The notes below the pieces were generated by a model that did not search any database, was not told the origin of the DNA, and saw only the letters and a list, made by a program, of their open reading frames with translations. Positions 5,357 to 64,000 of a stretch of DNA of 64,000 nt are shown in pieces; position 1 is the first letter of the stretch, and the number at the start of each line of letters is the position of its first letter. A program made the translations under genes and the position numbers. Source of the DNA: Hyphomicrobiales bacterium (GTDB lineage: Bacteria; Pseudomonadota; Alphaproteobacteria; Rhizobiales; Rhizobiaceae); assembly GCA_900469965.1 (NCBI GenBank), contig UBZP01000006.1, positions 1 to 64,000 of the forward strand, read 5' to 3'.

Positions 5357-5926
5357 ATGACGACCCAGCAGAAGAAGTCTTCCACGCGTCACGGTTTCAA
5401 GACCGGTGAATCGATCGTCTATCCGGCTCATGGTGTCGGCCAGATCGTCGCCATCGAGGAACAGGAAGTCGCCGGCATGAAGCTCGAGCTTTTTGTCATC
5501 GATTTCGAGAAGGACAAAATGCGCCTGAAGGTTCCGGTCGCCAAGGCTGTTTCCATCGGCATGCGCAAGCTTTCCGAGACCGATTTCGTCGATCGCGCGT
5601 TGAAGGTTGTTCAGGGCAAGGCTCGCGTCAAGCGCACCATGTGGTCGCGCCGTGCGCAGGAATATGACGCCAAGATCAATTCCGGTGACCTGATTTCGAT
5701 CGCCGAGGTGGTCCGCGATCTCTATCGCGCCGAGAACCAGCCGGAGCAGTCCTATTCCGAGCGCCAGCTCTACGAGGCCGCGCTCGACCGCATGGCCCGC
5801 GAGATCGCCGCCGTGAACAAGATGTCCGAGACCGAGGCCGTGCGCCTCGTCGAGACCAACCTGAACAAGGGTCCGAAGCGCGGCAAGGCCATCGAAGAGG
5901 ACGACGCCCAGGACGAGGCAGCCTGA
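5357..5926 (+). CDS. CarD family transcriptional regulator
   Basis: 189 residues from ATG 5357 (MTTQQKKSSTRHGFKTGE). The N-terminal CarD/TRCF RNA-polymerase-interacting domain is clear: GESIVYPAHGVGQI, then the beta-rich stretch to about residue 75. A helical C-terminal domain follows and the protein ends in an acidic tail. In other bacteria CarD binds the RNA polymerase beta subunit and stabilises open complexes, especially at rRNA promoters; the same is inferred here. The gene is monocistronic by layout: a 376-base leader before it and a strong terminator 30 bases after it. Confidence 0.93.
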   Translation: MTTQQKKSSTRHGFKTGESIVYPAHGVGQIVAIEEQEVAGMKLELFVIDFEKDKMRLKVPVAKAVSIGMRKLSETDFVDRALKVVQGKARVKRTMWSRRAQEYDAKINSGDLISIAEVVRDLYRAENQPEQSYSERQLYEAALDRMAREIAAVNKMSETEAVRLVETNLNKGPKRGKAIEEDDAQDEAA

Positions 5927-5955
5927 AGAGCTATCCGCCTCCCAGGAAAATTCAA

Positions 5956-5982
5956 CCCGGCTGGTCCCCAGCCGGGTTTTTT
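5956..5982 (+). terminator. Rho-independent terminator of the CarD gene
   Basis: Perfect 9-bp stem CCCGGCTGG / CCAGCCGGG with a 3-base loop TCC, followed at once by six T residues. It lies 30 bases after the CarD stop and only four bases before the stress-type promoter of rpoH2. Confidence 0.95.
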
Positions 5983-36748: not shown

Positions 36749-37831
36749 CTACCGCACCGGCGTCAAAGTGAACCCTTGCGCGCGCAGCAATTCCACCACG
36801 CCTTCCTTTCCGGGCAGGTGCAGCGCGCCGACGGCGATGAAGACGTTGCCTTCGGCGAGGATCGGCGCGGCGCGCTCGGCCATGCGGTGGTTGCGATCGA
36901 TGATGATCCGCTGTTCGAAATCGGCGTAGGCGTTGTCGTCGCTTTCGACGCCCGGCGGCGGCATGCGCATCAACGGCATGATCATCCCGGTCTGTCCGGA
37001 GAGATAGAGCTGGCTCATCGTCTCGATGACGTCCTTCACGCCGTCGCCGAGCTGGACCACCTGCAGAAGGCCCGCCAGTTGCGGCTCGAGCGGCAGGCCG
37101 TCGAGCGCGCTGATCTGCTCGATCATCGTCTCCAGCCCCTTCAGCGTCTTGCCGTCGGCGAGCGCATCCTGGGCGAGCTTCTGGTCGAGGAAGGCCAGGC
37201 CGGCCTGCTTGCGGGCCATTTCGCAGGCGGGAAGGGCGACGAAGCTCATGATCATCCAGGGCTTCATGCGCGCGACCGCCGTCAGCGAGAGGCCGCGCGC
37301 CTTCAGCCCTTCGGCGAGGATGGCCGCATCCTTCTCACCCAGCAGCCCGGGTATCGTCCGGCCGTCGGTGAACATGGTCAGGTCGGGACGGGTCAGGATC
37401 GTGGCGCTGGCCTTCCTGACGTCGGCGATTTCATCGGATTCGACGACGACCGTCTGCGCCTCCTCGTAGGCCGCCTGCGCCGCATCCGGCATCGCGACCA
37501 CGCGCGGATCGGTCACGTGCATCGTGCCGAGGAGATAGGAGGGGGACGTGCCGGGCTTCTCGATCTTCCAGAAGATGCCTTCGCCGTTCGTTGCCGTCTT
37601 CGCTTCGCCGACCAGCTTCGCATAGGCCGCCGGATCGCTCGCCTGCAAATCGGGAAGCAGGTTCTTGCCGGTGCAGGCCGGCGGCTCGGCCGCGCTCGCA
37701 GGCGAGAGCGAAAGCAGGACGAAAAGGAGCGATGCGGCAACGAGAGCATGAAGCGTCGCGAGGACCCCCAGGGCCGTGTCGGCGATGCGGTCGGCGAGGT
37801 GGGCGCGTGGCTGGAGCGGCAATCGTTTCAT
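36749..37831 (-). CDS. TraB/GumN family protein
   Basis: 360 residues with an N-terminal hydrophobic export signal (about residues 20-48, ending SASAAEPP). The TraB/TIKI-type motifs are present: YLLGTMHVTD, a Glu-rich VVVESDE, then IDRNHRMAERAAPIL and FIAVGALHLPGKEGVVELL. The animal relatives (TIKI) are metalloproteases; in bacteria the family is poorly known, some members being named GumN. Location is probably periplasm or envelope. About 118 bases separate it from xerC on the same strand. Confidence 0.87.
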   Translation of the reverse strand: MKRLPLQPRAHLADRIADTALGVLATLHALVAASLLFVLLSLSPASAAEPPACTGKNLLPDLQASDPAAYAKLVGEAKTATNGEGIFWKIEKPGTSPSYLLGTMHVTDPRVVAMPDAAQAAYEEAQTVVVESDEIADVRKASATILTRPDLTMFTDGRTIPGLLGEKDAAILAEGLKARGLSLTAVARMKPWMIMSFVALPACEMARKQAGLAFLDQKLAQDALADGKTLKGLETMIEQISALDGLPLEPQLAGLLQVVQLGDGVKDVIETMSQLYLSGQTGMIMPLMRMPPPGVESDDNAYADFEQRIIIDRNHRMAERAAPILAEGNVFIAVGALHLPGKEGVVELLRAQGFTLTPVR

Positions 37832-37949
37832 GGAGTATGTTTTCCCTGCGATTTTGGTTCGACCCTAGCTGTCCAGCCCCTCACAATCCCTTAACGCCCG
37901 GGGCGTCGCCAATTTATGGCGCACCGGCCTGGCAGCCATGCGTGCGCCG

Positions 37950-38885
37950 TCAGGCGCGGGGGTGGGCGCGGTCGTAAATTTCCAGCAGCCGGGCCGAATC
38001 GACGCCGGTATAGACTTGGGTCGTGGACAGGCTGGCGTGCCCCAGAAGTTCCTGGATCGTGCGCAGGTCGCCGCCGCCTGCGAGCAGATGGGTGGCGAAG
38101 GAATGGCGGAGCGCGTGCGGGGTGGCGCTGTCGGGCAAACCCAGCGCGCCGCGCAGCTTCTGCATCTCGCGCTGGATGATCGCCGGCTGCAGCGGGCCCC
38201 CGCGGGCGCCGCGAAAGAGCGGCCCGTCCTTGGCAAGCGGGAAGGGGCAAAGGCGCAGATAGTCCTCGACGCCTGTGCGTGCGGCCGCAAGCAGCGGGAC
38301 GATGCGGGTCTTGCCGCCCTTGCCGGTGATGCGCAGCGCGCCGGAGGTGCTTGCGAAATCATCCGGTGTCAAGGCCAGCGCCTCCGAGATGCGCAGGCCG
38401 CAGCCGTAGAGAAGCGTCAGGACGGCCGCGTTGCGCACGCTGATCCAGGGCTCCTCGGACAGCTGCACCCCGGTGTCGACGACGGCGAGCGCCTGGCTGT
38501 CGGTCAGGGGCTTGGGCAGGGATTTCGGCTGCTTGGGCGATCGGATCGCGGCGGCGCCGGCGGCGTTGACGAGACCCTTCCGCTCCAGATGCCGCAGGAA
38601 GGAGCGCAGGCCGGCCAGGCCGCGGCCGAGCGTGCGTGCGCCCGCCCCGTCCCGGCGGCGCGCGGCGAGAAAGCCGCGCAGGTCCGCCGGCCGCAGGTTG
38701 CCGATGTCCTTCAGGCGGGCGGGGGCGGCGAGATGGCCGGTGAGGAAGGCCAGGAACTGGCGCGTGTCGCGCTCGTAGGCCTCCAGCGTATTGCCGGAAA
38801 GCCGGCGTTCCTCGGCCAGCGCCGAAAGCCAGGCGGCGCGCTCGGAAAGCAGGGCCGGGTCGGCAATGATAAGCAGTTGATCCAT
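37950..38885 (-). CDS. xerC: Tyrosine recombinase XerC
   Basis: 311 residues. The N-terminal SAM-like core-binding domain covers about 1-100 (EERRLSGNTLEAYERDTRQF). The catalytic domain has Arg in YGCGLRISEAL, Lys in GKGGKTRIVPL, His-x2-Arg in HALRHSFATHLL, His in ELLGHASLSTTQVY, with the nucleophile Tyr at the end. It resolves chromosome dimers at dif with XerD. The start has weak ribosome-binding signals. No attachment site or phage gene lies nearby, so I read it as the housekeeping enzyme rather than an integrase. Confidence 0.93.
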   Translation of the reverse strand: MDQLLIIADPALLSERAAWLSALAEERRLSGNTLEAYERDTRQFLAFLTGHLAAPARLKDIGNLRPADLRGFLAARRRDGAGARTLGRGLAGLRSFLRHLERKGLVNAAGAAAIRSPKQPKSLPKPLTDSQALAVVDTGVQLSEEPWISVRNAAVLTLLYGCGLRISEALALTPDDFASTSGALRITGKGGKTRIVPLLAAARTGVEDYLRLCPFPLAKDGPLFRGARGGPLQPAIIQREMQKLRGALGLPDSATPHALRHSFATHLLAGGGDLRTIQELLGHASLSTTQVYTGVDSARLLEIYDRAHPRA

Positions 38886-38940
38886 GTTCGCCTCGATCCG
38901 GACAGAGACTAGACCGTCCGGAGTTAGACATTTGTTAACA

Positions 38941-38968
38941 TTGACTTCGCGGTTGTCACGCTTAGATC
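38941..38968 (+). promoter_or_regulatory. Candidate promoter of the acyltransferase gene
   Basis: TTGACT (38941-38946) and TAGATC (38963-38968) with a 16-base spacer lie about 45 bases before the acyltransferase ATG. The -35 is good, the -10 is weak. The 126-base divergent gap also contains GTTAAC. Confidence 0.35.
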
Positions 38969-39011
38969 ATATGGAACTGCGATACGGTGCTGGACTCGAG
39001 CAGGCGGACCC

Positions 39012-39914
39012 ATGGCAAGACGTGATTCGGGAACAGCGTTCGCACATCTCGCGGAGACGGTGGCGCTCGTCTCGCACGGGCAGCCCGGCCATATCGTCGA
39101 CACGCTGATCGCCGAGCGGGGCACGCGCATCGTCGAGCATCCGCTCTGGCCGGTGATGCGGCCGTTCCTCTACACCATACTCAACTATCGCCGGGCGATC
39201 GAATTTGCCGATGCGGTCGCCAACATGCCGGGCTTCCAGGCATTCGAGTTCCTGAGTTCGGCCCTCAAGCTGGACGTGGCGGTGCGGCATGAGGAACGGA
39301 TCCCGGAGAAGGGCGGCTTCCTGCTCGTCAGCAACCATCCGACCGGGATCGCCGACGGGGTCGCCGTCTTCGATCTCATGAAGAACCGCCGGCCCGACAT
39401 GATGTTCTTCGCCAACCGCGACGCCATCCGCGTCAATCCGCGTTTCGTCGAGATGATCATCCCGGTCGAATGGCGGGAGGAGCACAAGAGCAAGCTGAAG
39501 ACGCGCGAGACGCTGCAGATCACCAACCGGGCGATCGCCGAGGGCAAGGCCGCGGTCCTGTTTCCCTCCGGCCGCATCGCCTACTGGGCGGACGGGCGGC
39601 TGAACGAGCGGCCGTGGAAGATCTCGGCCGTGTCGCTTGCGCGCAAGTACGAGCTGCCGATCCTGCCGGTACACATGAAGGCGCGCAATTCCGGGCTGTT
39701 CTACTGGCTGGCCAAATGGTCGACCGAACTGCGCGACATGACGGTGTTCCATGAACTCCTGAACAAGAAGAGCAATCGCTTCGAGTTCACCGTCGGCAAC
39801 ATGATCCAGCCCGACCAGCTGGCCGGCGATCCGATCGACGTCACCAAGGCGCTGGAACGCCATTGCGTCTTTTCGCTCGGCGACGACCCGGACGCACGGT
39901 TTGCCCCCCGCTGA
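39012..39914 (+). CDS. Lysophospholipid acyltransferase family protein (PlsC-like)
   Basis: 300 residues. The acyltransferase motif is NHPTGIADG: His is followed by five residues before Asp (HX5D), not the classical HX4D, as in some OlsB/hemolysin-like branches. A second motif, LFPSGRIAYWADGRL, corresponds to the FPEGTRS block. No strong transmembrane segment except perhaps near FLYTILNY. It probably acylates a lysophospholipid or related lipid at the membrane; the acceptor is unknown. It is divergent from xerC and followed after 56 bases by an AAA ATPase gene. Confidence 0.82.
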   Translation: MARRDSGTAFAHLAETVALVSHGQPGHIVDTLIAERGTRIVEHPLWPVMRPFLYTILNYRRAIEFADAVANMPGFQAFEFLSSALKLDVAVRHEERIPEKGGFLLVSNHPTGIADGVAVFDLMKNRRPDMMFFANRDAIRVNPRFVEMIIPVEWREEHKSKLKTRETLQITNRAIAEGKAAVLFPSGRIAYWADGRLNERPWKISAVSLARKYELPILPVHMKARNSGLFYWLAKWSTELRDMTVFHELLNKKSNRFEFTVGNMIQPDQLAGDPIDVTKALERHCVFSLGDDPDARFAPR

Positions 39915-57943: not shown

Positions 57944-59668
<1,725 letters not shown>

Positions 59669-59737: not shown

Positions 59738-60160
59738 TCAGACGTAGCGGAACACGCCGATGGCGTAGACCACGCACAAGGCGAGTGCCCACCACAGGTT
59801 GGGGCCGACCAGCCCCAGCCATGCGAGATTGATGAATGCCGAGCCGAGCAGCGAGATGAACAGGCGGTCGCCGCGCGTCGTCTCGAAACGCAGGATGCCG
59901 ACGCGCGGATGTCCGCCCGGCCGCGCGTATTCCCAGACCGCCATCAGCGCCAGCAGCGTGAAGATGCTGAGAAAGAACATCGCGGTCGGAAACGACCAGG
60001 CCATCCAGCCGCCGGGGACGAGCGGGGCGAACCAGTCGCGGCCGCCGTCCTTGACCGGCAGCGACAGCACCAGCATTCCGGTCGCAAGCGCGTAGATGAG
60101 CAGGACGGCGAGCAGGGCCAGCGGCCAGCGGCTGTTGTTGTTCGTGGTTGCGGCCATCAT
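59738..60160 (-). CDS. DUF2160 small membrane protein of the glycerol transporter operon
   Basis: 140 residues from ATG 60160, which overlaps the glpQ stop as ATGA and has GGGAGGGT upstream. After MMAATTNNNSRWPL come four hydrophobic segments (LALLAVLLIYALATGMLVL, AMFFLSIFTLLALMAVW, LISL-type SLLGSAFINLAWLGLV, LWWALALCVVYAIGVF). Its place in the operon corresponds to glpU in rhizobia. The role in glycerol uptake is not known; an accessory membrane subunit is the obvious guess. Confidence 0.85.
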   Translation of the reverse strand: MMAATTNNNSRWPLALLAVLLIYALATGMLVLSLPVKDGGRDWFAPLVPGGWMAWSFPTAMFFLSIFTLLALMAVWEYARPGGHPRVGILRFETTRGDRLFISLLGSAFINLAWLGLVGPNLWWALALCVVYAIGVFRYV

Positions 60161-61053
60161 ACCCTCCCGAGCGCGAAGCCCTTGGCGATGTAGTTGCGGA
60201 CGAAGTAGATGACGAGCGCACCGGGGATGATGGTGAGCACGCCGGCTGCGGCCAGCACGCCCCAGTCCATGCCCGAGGCCGAGACCGTGCGCGTCATCGT
60301 GGCGGCGATCGGCTTGGCGTCCGTCGTCGTCAGCGTGCGGGCGATCAAAAGCTCGACCCAGGAGAACATGAAGCAGAAGAAGGCGGCGACGCCGATGCCG
60401 GAGGCGATCAGCGGCACGAAGATCTTGCCGAAGAATTTTGGGAACGAATAGCCGTCGATATAGGCGGTCTCGTCGATCTCCTTCGGCACGCCCGACATGA
60501 AGCCCTCGAGGATCCAGACGGCGAGCGGCACGTTGAACAGGCAGTGGGCGAGCGCGACGGCGATGTGCGTGTCGATCAGGCCGAAGGCCGAATAGAGCTG
60601 GAAGAAGGGCAGGGCGAAGACCGCCGGCGGCGCCATCCGGTTCGTCAAAAGCCAGAAGAACAGGTGCTTGTCGCCGAGGAAGCGGTAGCGCGAGAACGCG
60701 TAGGCCGCCGGCAGCGCGACGGCCACCGAGATCGCCGTGTTCATCACCACGTAGATGATCGAGTTGATGTAGCCGGAATACCAGGCGGGATCGGTGAAGA
60801 TCACCGCATAATTCCTGAGCGTCGGGCTCTGCGGCCACAGCGAGAAGGTGCCGGTGATCTCGGTGTTGGTCTTGAAGCTCATGTTGACGAGCCAGTAGAT
60901 CGGCAGCATCAAAAACACGATGTAGAGGGTCGGCACGATCCAGCCGAGGTTGCGGCGCGGGGCCTCTTCCAGCGCGATCGTGTGTGTCCGTGCGGGCGCC
61001 GCGGCCGTTGCGGTTGCGGGGGCGGATGTCTCTGTCTGAACGCGGGCGGTCAT
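60157..61053 (-). CDS. glpQ: Glycerol ABC transporter permease (GlpQ-like)
   Basis: 298 residues with about six transmembrane helices after an Ala/Thr-rich cytoplasmic N-terminus. The EAA loop is EIDETAYIDGYSFPKFFGKI, of the MalG type. It pairs with GlpP to form the inner-membrane pore. The stop overlaps the DUF2160 start; glpP ends 10 bases upstream. Confidence 0.9.
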   Translation of the reverse strand: MTARVQTETSAPATATAAAPARTHTIALEEAPRRNLGWIVPTLYIVFLMLPIYWLVNMSFKTNTEITGTFSLWPQSPTLRNYAVIFTDPAWYSGYINSIIYVVMNTAISVAVALPAAYAFSRYRFLGDKHLFFWLLTNRMAPPAVFALPFFQLYSAFGLIDTHIAVALAHCLFNVPLAVWILEGFMSGVPKEIDETAYIDGYSFPKFFGKIFVPLIASGIGVAAFFCFMFSWVELLIARTLTTTDAKPIAATMTRTVSASGMDWGVLAAAGVLTIIPGALVIYFVRNYIAKGFALGRV

Positions 61054-61063
61054 CGTTTCCTCC

Positions 61064-61930
61064 TCACGCCTGTTCGTCGCTGCTGGTCATGACCGTGTAG
61101 AAGATCCACGACAGCAGCAGGATGATGAGGAAATAGATGATCGACATGGCCGCGGCCGGGCCGAGGTCGAACTGGCCGATCGCCATCTTGACGAGGTCGA
61201 TCGACAGGAAGGTCGTCGAGTTGCCGGGACCGCCGCCGGTGACGACGAAGGGTTCGGTATAGATCATGAAACTGTCCATGAAGCGCAGCAGGAAGGCGAT
61301 CAGCAGCACGCGCTTCATCTTCGGCAGCTGGATGTAGCGGAAGACGGCCCAGCGCGAGGCGCCGTCGATCTTGGCGGCCTGGTAGTAGGCCTCGGGGATC
61401 GAGACGAGGCCGGCATAGCAGAGCAGCACGACGAGGCTCGTCCAGTGCCAGACGTCCATGACGATCAGCGTCATCCAGGCGTCGAAGACGTCGTTGACGT
61501 AGTTGTAGTCGAAGCCGAGCGCCTTCAGGGTGAAGCCGAGCAGGCCGATGTCGACGCGGCCGAAGACCTGCCAGATCGTGCCGACGACGTTCCACGGGAT
61601 CAGGAGCGGCAGCGCCATCAGCACGAGGCAGACCGGCACGCCAAGGCCCTTCTTCGGCATGTTCAGCGCGATCAGGATGCCGAGCGGGATCTCGATCGAC
61701 AGAATGATCGCCGAGAACAGCAGGTTGCGGCCGAGCGCCTCCCAGAAGCGGTCGGAATGCAGGATCTCGACGAACCAGTCGGTGCCGGCCCAGAAGAACT
61801 GGTTGTTGCCGAACGTGTCCTGGACCGAATAGTTCACCACCGTCATCAGCGGGATGACGGCCGAGAAGGCGACCAGCAACAGCACCGGCAGCACCATGAA
61901 CCAGGCCTTGTTGTTCCAGGTTCTCTCCAT
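61064..61930 (-). CDS. glpP: Glycerol ABC transporter permease (GlpP-like)
   Basis: 288 residues, about six transmembrane helices. The EAA loop is IPEAYYQAAKIDGASRWAVF, of the MalF type. The N-terminal MERTWNNKAWFMVLPVLLLV is standard for the family. The gene starts three bases after the glpT stop, so translation is probably coupled. Confidence 0.9.
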   Translation of the reverse strand: MERTWNNKAWFMVLPVLLLVAFSAVIPLMTVVNYSVQDTFGNNQFFWAGTDWFVEILHSDRFWEALGRNLLFSAIILSIEIPLGILIALNMPKKGLGVPVCLVLMALPLLIPWNVVGTIWQVFGRVDIGLLGFTLKALGFDYNYVNDVFDAWMTLIVMDVWHWTSLVVLLCYAGLVSIPEAYYQAAKIDGASRWAVFRYIQLPKMKRVLLIAFLLRFMDSFMIYTEPFVVTGGGPGNSTTFLSIDLVKMAIGQFDLGPAAAMSIIYFLIILLLSWIFYTVMTSSDEQA

Positions 61931-61933
61931 GGC

Positions 61934-63004
61934 TCAAGCCTCCCTGCCGACACGCCAGCTGTCGGCGTAGATGTTGACGGCGGACGGATCGAAGGTGACG
62001 CGCGGATCGGCGGGGATCTCGCCGTCTTCCGGGACGACGATCGCGATCGGCCGGCCGGCGAATTCGGCGCGGACGATCTTCTGCCGGCCGATGTCCTCGA
62101 CCTTGTTGACGCGGACATGCATGCCCTCGCGGCCGAGGCGGATGAACTCAGGTCGGATGCCGAGCTCGGTCTTGGCGCCGGCGGCGACCTTCGGGCTGTA
62201 GTCCAGCGCGATCGTGTCCGTGCCGAGCGACACCCGGCTGCCGTCGATCTGCGCCGGCAGCAGGTTCATGCCCGGGGAGCCGATGAAGTAGCCGACGAAG
62301 GTGTGGCTCGGCCGCTCGAACAGCTCTGCCGGCGTGCCGATCTGGACGATCTGGCCGTCATACATGACGACGACCTTGTCGGCGAAGGTCAGCGCCTCGG
62401 TCTGGTCGTGGGTGACGTAGACCATGGTGAAGCCGAACTGGCGGTGCAGCTTCTTCAGCTGCGAGCGCAGGATCCACTTCATGTGCGGATCGATGACCGT
62501 CAGGGGCTCGTCGAAGAGGATGGCGTTGACGTCGTTGCGCACCAGGCCGCGACCGAGCGAGATCTTCTGCTTCTGGTCGGCGGTCAGCCCGCGCGCCGTC
62601 TTTTTCGCCCAGCCGGAAAGACCGATCATTTCGATGATCTCGGTGACGCGCCGGTCGACCTCCGGTTCAGGGACGCGCCGGTTGCGTAAGGGGAAGGCCA
62701 GGTTGTCGTAGACGGTCATCGTGTCGTAGATCACCGGGAACTGGAACACTTGGGCGATGTTGCGCTGCTGGGTCGACAGCCGGGTCACGTCCCTGCCGTC
62801 GAACAGGATCTTGCCCTCGGAGGGCTGCAGCAGGCCGGAGATGATGTTCAGCAGCGTGGTCTTGCCGCAGCCGGAGGGGCCGAGCAGCGCATAGGCGCCG
62901 CCATCGTTCCATTCGTGATGGACCTCCTTCAGGGCGTAGTCGGCTTCCGACTTCGGCTTCTCGCCGTAGGCGTGGCGGATATGTTCGAGATTGATGCGTG
63001 CCAT
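61934..63004 (-). CDS. glpT: Glycerol ABC transporter ATP-binding protein (GlpT-like) with a degenerate signature motif
   Basis: 356 residues. Walker A GPSGCGKTT (residues 42-50), Walker B ILFDEP with the catalytic Glu166, and the switch His199 in VTHDQTEAL are all intact. The signature motif is LTADQ (residues 140-144, bases 62573-62587) where LSGGQ is expected. The C-terminal regulatory (TOBE-like) domain of MalK-type ATPases follows. It probably forms a heterodimer with GlpS. The complementary defect in GlpS is noted in the findings. Confidence 0.92.
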   Translation of the reverse strand: MARINLEHIRHAYGEKPKSEADYALKEVHHEWNDGGAYALLGPSGCGKTTLLNIISGLLQPSEGKILFDGRDVTRLSTQQRNIAQVFQFPVIYDTMTVYDNLAFPLRNRRVPEPEVDRRVTEIIEMIGLSGWAKKTARGLTADQKQKISLGRGLVRNDVNAILFDEPLTVIDPHMKWILRSQLKKLHRQFGFTMVYVTHDQTEALTFADKVVVMYDGQIVQIGTPAELFERPSHTFVGYFIGSPGMNLLPAQIDGSRVSLGTDTIALDYSPKVAAGAKTELGIRPEFIRLGREGMHVRVNKVEDIGRQKIVRAEFAGRPIAIVVPEDGEIPADPRVTFDPSAVNIYADSWRVGREA

Positions 63005-63014
63005 GGCTTTCTCC

Positions 63015-64000
63015 TCAGGCCGCCGCCGGGCCGGCGATCGCCCTGCCGTCCGGTGCGAACGCCATCAGGTGGCGCGTGTCGACATAGACGGTGATCGCGG
63101 CGTCCGGCTCGATGTCGTGGATGCCGGGCGCGAGCATGACCCAGCGCGTATCGGCGAACTCGACATGGACGAAGCTTTCGGATCCGGCGATCTCCGAGAT
63201 CGCCGTGCGGACCGTCACCGGGGCGGCGGACGCCGATTGCGGGCTCAGCGCCAGGTGATGCGGCTGGAACGCAACCGTGCAGGGGCCGTCCGGAATGCCG
63301 TGCAGATGGGCCGGGACCGACAGGACGCGCTCGCCTTCCAGCACGAAGTGCCCGTTCGCCTTGGTCAGCGCGAAGGTGTTCAGCGGCGGATCGGCGAAGG
63401 TCTCCGCCGTGATCAGGTCGACGGGGCGGCGATAGACGTCGATGGTGGGGGCGAACTGGGTGATGCGCCCCTCCGACAGCGTCGCGGTATTGCCGCCGAG
63501 CAACAGCGCCTCGGACGGCTCGGTCGTCGCGTAGACGAAGATCGCGCCGGAGGCGGCGAAGATCTTCGGCAGTTCCTCGCGCAACTCCTCGCGCAGCTTG
63601 TAGTCGAGGTTCGCCAGCGGCTCGTCGAGGAGGACGAGGCTGGCATTCTTGACGATGGCGCGCGCCAGTGCCGTGCGCTGCTGCTGGCCGCCGGACAGGT
63701 TCAGCGGCGTGCGGTCGAGATAGGGCGTGAGCTTGAGGAGGTCGGCGGCCTTGCGCACCTCGCGGTCGATCGTCGCCTGGTCGGCGCCCTTGATGCGCAT
63801 CGGCGAGGCGATGTTCTCGTAGACCGTCATCGCCGGATAGTTGATGAACTGCTGGTAGACCATGGCGACGCTGCGGTCCTGCACGCGCAGGCCGGTGACG
63901 TCCTTGCCGTCGAACCAGACCGAGCCGAAGGTCGGCTTGTCGAGGCCGGCCATCAGCCGCATCAGCGAGGTCTTGCCGGATAGCGTCGGGCCGAGCAGCA
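63015..64000 (-). CDS. glpS: Glycerol ABC transporter ATP-binding protein (GlpS-like), N-terminus outside window
   Basis: At least 327 residues visible; the start lies beyond base 64000. Walker A (GPTLSGKTS) is at the window edge, the signature is canonical LSGGQQQR (bases 63684-63698) and Walker B is LVLLDEP. The switch position, normally His, is Thr in YATTEPSEAL (codon at 63522-63524). A C-terminal TOBE-like domain follows. It is the first visible gene of glpSTPQ-DUF2160-glpV and ends 10 bases before glpT. Regulatory genes such as glpD or glpR, expected upstream in relatives, are outside the window. Confidence 0.9.
   Translation of the reverse strand, partial: LLGPTLSGKTSLMRLMAGLDKPTFGSVWFDGKDVTGLRVQDRSVAMVYQQFINYPAMTVYENIASPMRIKGADQATIDREVRKAADLLKLTPYLDRTPLNLSGGQQQRTALARAIVKNASLVLLDEPLANLDYKLREELREELPKIFAASGAIFVYATTEPSEALLLGGNTATLSEGRITQFAPTIDVYRRPVDLITAETFADPPLNTFALTKANGHFVLEGERVLSVPAHLHGIPDGPCTVAFQPHHLALSPQSASAAPVTVRTAISEIAGSESFVHVEFADTRWVMLAPGIHDIEPDAAITVYVDTRHLMAFAPDGRAIAGPAAA

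Follow-up and report, generated by a model that had tools for sequence, protein, structure and literature searches.

The window, that is, the whole 64,000-nucleotide stretch analysed here, ends in an ABC importer operon on the minus strand, ordered glpS-glpT-glpP-glpQ-glpU(DUF2160)-glpV. Two of its genes encode MalK-type ATPases. In the product of glpS (63015..64000 in the window), LSGGQ is present and the switch His absent; the 5′ end of this gene lies beyond the window, the complete gene spanning 64091-63015 of the contig (G000:C29), and a glpD-like frame, named by its start and position, lies directly upstream. The product of glpT (61934..63004) has a degenerate signature, keeps its own Walker A/B motifs and switch His, and matches ABC_tran and OB_MalK. 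Two permease genes with BPD_transp_1 matches follow, glpP (61064..61930) and glpQ (60157..61053), then glpU (59738..60157), which encodes a small DUF2160 membrane protein and served as our marker of the glycerol system, and glpV (57944..59668), which encodes a solute-binding protein with an SBP_bac_1 match.

Both the gene order (S-T-P-Q-DUF2160-V) and orthology agree with the GlpSTPQUV importer of R. leguminosarum, and the order is that of strain VF39, whose glpSTPQUV operon is described as a glycerol importer in passages of PMC7912956; such operons in VF39, and relatives in Cupriavidus and Ralstonia, are covered by passages of PMC7912956 and PMC11223650. GlpT is 84% identical to the copy on the R. 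leguminosarum plasmid pRLG204; the genes there run glpR-like regulator, glpD, S, T, P, Q, DUF2160, V, glpK. From this orthology we infer glycerol to be the substrate of the window importer. The passages of PMC7912956, PMC11223650 and PMC11505543 that deal with GlpSTPQUV-type importers make no mention of unequal ATP sites. Across loci the operon comes in two gene orders: the solute-binding gene may precede glpS (L069, L071, L074 and others), or it may follow the DUF2160 gene, which is the arrangement of the window.

Motifs and class of the two ATPases

According to passages of PMC7756269, one ATP site of an ABC dimer consists of the Walker A/B motifs and the A-, Q- and H-loops of one subunit together with the signature of its partner, and the head-to-tail geometry assumed in the sequence-only reading of this DNA agrees with that account. 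One composite site is consensus: GlpT has an intact Walker A (GPSGCGKTT, 62855..62881), catalytic Glu (62507..62509) and switch His (YVTHDQ, 62408..62410), and GlpS an intact LSGGQ (LSGGQQQR, 63684..63698; these and all following features on the minus strand). The other is degenerate. GlpS retains the Lys and Thr of Walker A (GPTLSGKTS, 63966..63992) and the catalytic Glu (LLDEPLANLD, 63621..63623), and carries Thr-Glu-Pro in place of the switch His-Asp-Gln (YATTEPSEA, 63516..63524), with the Thr codon, 63524-63522, at the position of His in MalK-type controls. The partner signature in GlpT is LTADQ (GLTADQKQKIS, 62573..62587) instead of LSGGQ; 42/42 controls have LSGGQ or MSGGQ. The motifs and coordinates given by the sequence-only reading were read directly from the DNA and are right. 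We take position 4 of the GlpT signature to be the position of the CFTR mutation G551D.

Two further oddities had been missed. At the A-loop, GlpS carries Val (codon 64061-64059 of the contig, outside the window), and this loss of the aromatic residue falls in the same composite site as the losses of the GlpS His and the GlpT signature. The GlpT D-loop reads LTVID (LFDEPLTVIDP, 62489..62503), the controls having SNLD (37/42) or SALD (3/42). In ABC dimers each D-loop lies opposite the Walker motifs of the other subunit, and TVID would face the degenerate site. Because passages of PMC7756269 place the D-loop at the centre of the dimer interface, without direct nucleotide contact in the closed dimer, TVID is a weaker marker of the weak site.

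Single-chain models were predicted with confidence, at a mean pLDDT of 91.4 for GlpT and, in a chain lacking the first 31 residues, 89.0 for GlpS. The GlpT model matched MalK 2awn_B with a TM score of 0.90, and the GlpS model matched 2it1_B (0.84) and MalK 4khz_B (0.83). In Pfam, ABC_tran alone scored above its cut-off for GlpS; the best NCBIfam model was UgpC, below its cut-off. GlpS and GlpT thus share fold and sequence with the MalK, UgpC and SugC ATPases (CUT1, type I), their best solved matches being MalK-type, and have the ABC domain, C-terminal regulatory domain and MalK fold of that class, without its canonical signature and switch His in both sites. MalK, UgpC and SugC ATPases are homodimers with two equal sites, unlike the pairing proposed for GlpS/GlpT. 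The CUT2 fused (RbsA-type) architecture has two nucleotide-binding domains (NBDs) per chain, whereas GlpS and GlpT each have a gene of their own and a single NBD. As in degenerate-site transporters, the losses are limited to one of the two composite sites and conserved family-wide.

Asymmetry across the glycerol importer family

Relatives were gathered through the DUF2160 gene next door, which kept the choice independent of the ATPase sequences. DUF2160 matches occurred in 41 of 289 genomes of the class and 106 of 397 genomes of the phylum; 120 places, a subset of the matches listed with about one or a few per genus, and the window's own gave 121 loci. GlpS and GlpT were both found at 110. At nine, a lone MalK-type ATPase accompanied a distant DUF2160-like gene; L106 lacked an ATPase in range, and L108 lacked all of the genes. 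Shorter, distant DUF2160-like genes occur at L096, L103, L104, L136, L140, L148 and L180-L182, each in an importer operon whose single MalK-type ATPase is canonical. We also scanned genome contigs for motifs, and the best 80 of 590 stretches yielded 67 GlpT and 13 other ATPases. These scan loci, the 110 DUF2160 pairs and two plasmid loci formed a full set of 178 GlpS and 179 GlpT from Pseudomonadota, Actinomycetota (Streptomyces, Nonomuraea) and Chloroflexota (a Limnocylindrales bin, L218), partly from metagenome bins. The 67 scan GlpT were found with the patterns [FM]DEPLTVI and YVTHDQ, and their D-loop and His are partly given by construction.

As controls we used 42 ordinary MalK-type ATPases, including 19 picked in the own genome by a pattern needing the Walker A Lys and DE[PA], and 13 from the same best 80 of 590 scan stretches; L244, L277 and L279, which are not MalK-type, were omitted. 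All 42 had SGG, His, Glu and an aromatic residue or His at the A-loop, partly by selection, since the Glu or His of the pattern-selected 19 and 13 is partly given by construction; the signatures are not.

In every one of the 110 DUF2160-found pairs, GlpS combined LSGGQQQR with a switch residue of Thr or Ser, and GlpT had the His and no LSGG; in the same GlpT, Glu and the D-loop TVID were present in 110/110 and Asp at signature position 4 in 108/110. A sequencing error or pseudogene was rejected because all 110 loci show this pattern. The placement of both losses in one composite site, with the other consensus, held for 110/110 pairs and for the full set with its best 80 of 590 scan stretches. 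The orthologue comparison proposed earlier, a search for GlpT with LSGG or GlpS with the switch His, returned 0/179 and 0/178 in that set.

Within the full set (best 80 of 590 scan stretches included), the GlpS switch residue was Thr in 157, Ser in 19, Ala in 2 and His in none of 178, followed by Glu or Asp in 178/178 and Pro in 177/178. GlpT signature position 4 was Asp in 172, Ala in 3, Gly in 3 and Glu in 1 of 179, and none of the three with Gly there has Gly at position 3 too. The A-loop of GlpS was Val in 160/178 and Tyr, Phe or His in 3. The GlpT D-loop was T-V-[IV]-D (T-V 179/179, Asp 178/179), that of GlpS [AVM]-N-L-D. The consensus site was invariant in the same set, with Lys, Glu, His and the A-loop Tyr in 179/179 GlpT and SGGQ in 178/178 GlpS. 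The weak site, too, kept the Walker A Lys and Thr, the Walker B Asp and the catalytic Glu of GlpS in 178/178. The sequence-only reading had called it dead, which is too strong: with Lys, Asp and Glu in place, ATP binding would be expected, with poor hydrolysis.

A GlpS open frame lay beside GlpT in 178/179 loci (best 80 of 590 scan stretches included). The exception, L278 (Mangrovicoccus ximenensis, ~5768-5977), has only the C-terminal end of GlpS upstream of GlpT, by deletion, rearrangement or misassembly. The GlpS and GlpT distance matrices of the 178 pairs correlated with r = 0.895, against 0.085 for the best of 500 permutations. Pairs of this type were also seen outside a recognised glycerol operon, on an Ensifer adhaerens plasmid (L189, unannotated) and on a plasmid of Streptomyces NBC_00271 (L191), with an alcohol dehydrogenase gene ahead of the pair and no DUF2160 gene among those listed. 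Given the L191 context, the GlpS/GlpT module may serve other substrates.

Other two-ATPase importers of the same genome

The genome encodes a second, different asymmetric two-ATPase importer (L192, G000:C8 ~37540-39700), probably for a sugar, beside Gfo/Idh/MocA and TIM-barrel genes. In this C8 family, subunit A has LSVN in 12/12 pairs; the His is kept. In 7/12 the catalytic Glu of subunit B is replaced by Asp, and these are exactly the pairs whose subunit A signature reads LSVNI rather than LSVNE (L192, L213, L214, L352-L355); the Glu is kept in the relatives L215, L298-L300 and L356. On the tree, the change may be a single event. L216 and L217, which matched the C8 query, were left out as they are canonical and have no partner in the stretch.

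A third two-ATPase importer (L193, G000:C34 ~149660-151760) has relatives L303-L331. Among the best 30 of 39 matches of this C34 family, the subunit A signature was LAGGD in 14, LSGGD in 10, LSSGD in 4 and LAAGD in 2, that is, other than LSGG in 20/30. Subunit B, read in 29 of these best 30 of 39, had LSGGE in 23 and LSGGQ in 6 and departed from LSGG in 0/29. Glu and His were kept wherever readable in the same sample; L329 has no visible subunit B and L316 ends before the switch. Asymmetry as a property of all two-gene MalK-type pairs was rejected, the C34 family being nearly symmetric.

In a quick tree, each of the six subunit groups formed one clade with support 100, and GlpS and GlpT grouped together with support of only ~40. 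Approximately unbiased (AU) tests did not reject clades of GlpS with C8B and C34B (p = 0.62), GlpS with C8B (0.57), GlpT with C8A and C34A (0.47) or GlpT with C8A (0.53). Across the GlpST, C8 and C34 families (with the best 30 of 39 and best 80 of 590), no pair combined a lost catalytic residue with an LSGG partner, which suggests that the signature went first and the catalytic residue second. The C8 and C34 states suggest earlier stages of such a course, in which the signature would erode first and the partner's Glu or other catalytic residue would be lost later from the same site.

A working model and its place among known transporters

We propose that GlpS and GlpT probably act as an obligate heterodimer, arranged head to tail beneath the permeases GlpP and GlpQ, with one complete, hydrolysing site and one reduced site that binds ATP and hydrolyses it slowly or not at all. 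The operon, orthology, gene pairing and the congruence of the distances indicate the pairing. In the complete site, predicted to hydrolyse ATP, the GlpS LSGGQ would meet the Walker A/B motifs, A-loop and switch His of GlpT. GlpS Walker A/B with the GlpT LTADx signature, a site without switch His, A-loop aromatic or signature, would most likely bind ATP as a structural or regulatory ligand. A point against the proposal is the weak-site Glu, kept in 178/178 GlpS (best 80 of 590 scan stretches included) and often lost in degenerate exporters according to passages of PMC7756269.

The most serious alternative, though an unlikely one in our judgement, is decay without benefit: one intact site suffices, the other was free to drift after GlpS and GlpT had taken on separate roles, and the asymmetry is fixed by a ratchet without serving a function. 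The sequence-only reading held that two losses in the same site argue against decay, but losses in both sites would stop the transporter, and co-location alone is thus expected from decay too and no proof of maintenance. Column entropy over the 178 pairs (scan pairs from the best 80 of 590; lower percentiles are more conserved) points both ways. GlpT signature positions 2 to 5 lay at percentiles 53, 36, 31 and 79; positions 2 and 5 thus show no conservation beyond that of the median column, the picture expected of relaxed constraint. The C34 and C8 families, moreover, resemble steps of a ratchet. Against decay, the GlpT D-loop lay at percentiles 0, 0, 23 and 17, and in GlpS the A-loop at 31, the switch position at 27 and the next two at 17 and 11. 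In the same set, the replacements are non-random (Asp in 172/179 at signature position 4, T-V in 179/179 D-loops, the latter partly by construction, Glu/Asp in 178/178 and Pro in 177/178 after the lost His), the weak-site Lys, Asp and Glu persist in 178/178, and the fixed replacements change almost only synonymously: signature position 4 is encoded by GAC in 107 and GAT in 64 of 178 read (best 80 of 590 included), and the D-loop Thr by four codons. Entropy and synonymous change together indicate relaxed constraint on one part of the weak site and selection on another. The earlier claim of a maintained asymmetry accordingly finds partial support in the conserved replacement residues and none in GlpT signature positions 2 and 5, which vary freely. 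Restoring a canonical weak site is reported to lower uptake or coupling for Pdr5 and TAP (passages of PMC7756269).

The retention of Lys, Asp and Glu in 178/178 GlpS (best 80 of 590 included) would also fit an arrangement in which both sites hydrolyse ATP, the GlpS Walker site still working through Thr and the changed signature. In its favour, single Glu-to-Gln mutants of E. coli DppDF each stay active, although both sites of DppDF are described as active (passages of PMC12136057). We nevertheless consider it improbable, more so than decay, since switch His, A-loop aromatic and signature are lost together from one site and are lacking in 0/42 controls. Least probable by a wide margin is that GlpS and GlpT are not paired at all, acting as homodimers or for other permeases, even though some type I importer ATPases serve several importers (PMC7658222): the genes are adjacent in 178/179 loci (best 80 of 590 included) with congruent distances, and homodimers would leave both sites without LSGGQ in the case of GlpT and without the switch His in that of GlpS. 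Given gene pairing and congruent distances, homodimers were rejected as unlikely.

Our preferred reading, one hydrolysing and one ATP-binding site, bears on the old question of why a degenerate site persists in ABC proteins. The textbook type I importer, that for maltose, has two equal sites; a widespread MalK relative in which one site is complete and the other reduced, together with same-genome intermediates, would open the question to simple tests, by mutating the subunits and by measuring the ATP spent on each substrate molecule. More speculatively, GlpST could be a one-engine type I importer that spends one ATP per glycerol instead of two and keeps the second as a lasting clamp, having arisen stepwise in MalK-type heterodimers (LSGG → LAGGD → LSVN → LTAD) and independently in RbsA-like ATPases, both ending in a like His-Asp to Thr/Ser-Glu replacement; we hold this broader idea only tentatively, and would sooner doubt than accept it.

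The 20 double-ATPase loci chosen from the same genome comprise 7 complete RbsA-like (a putative label, based on motifs and size), 4 complete Opp/Dpp-like and 9 partial, other or unparsed ones. In the 7/7 complete RbsA-like fused ATPases, the signature of the N-terminal NBD is not LSGG and its His is retained; the C-terminal NBD shows [LM]SGGN, Ser for the switch His, then Glu (5) or Asp (2), and Arg for the Walker A Lys (7/7). The replacement of the His, similar to that in GlpS, points to a common chemical solution. The fully read Opp/Dpp-like ATPases had SGGQ or SGGM and His in both halves (4/4). DppD and DppF are heterodimeric importer ATPases from two genes, like GlpS and GlpT, and both can hydrolyse ATP (passages of PMC12136057), unlike the proposed GlpST.

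The exporters TM287/288, TAP, CFTR, Pdr5 and ABCG5/G8 combine one consensus and one degenerate composite site, as GlpST does, and Pdr5 has lost signature and His in the same site; such exporters have often lost the Walker B Glu (passages of PMC7756269), whereas GlpS keeps it and GlpST is an importer. Among the literature matches listed, all open-licence papers, none dealt with an inequality of the ATP sites in GlpS/GlpT or any other CUT1 importer. The sequence-only reading had stated that type I importers related to MalK usually have two equal sites; among importers there is a known exception, RbsA and NupO, for which passages of PMC11466899 state one degenerate site and which they class as type II importers. 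Their crosswise loss is similar to that of GlpST, but they are single fused chains, whereas GlpS is a separate MalK-type gene product keeping its Lys. Since the degenerate RbsA/NupO site is published, asymmetric importers are known, and what is new, as far as the literature matches show, is the MalK-type two-gene case with its Glu kept. GlpST is thus a widespread variant of an asymmetry known in other ABC transporters.
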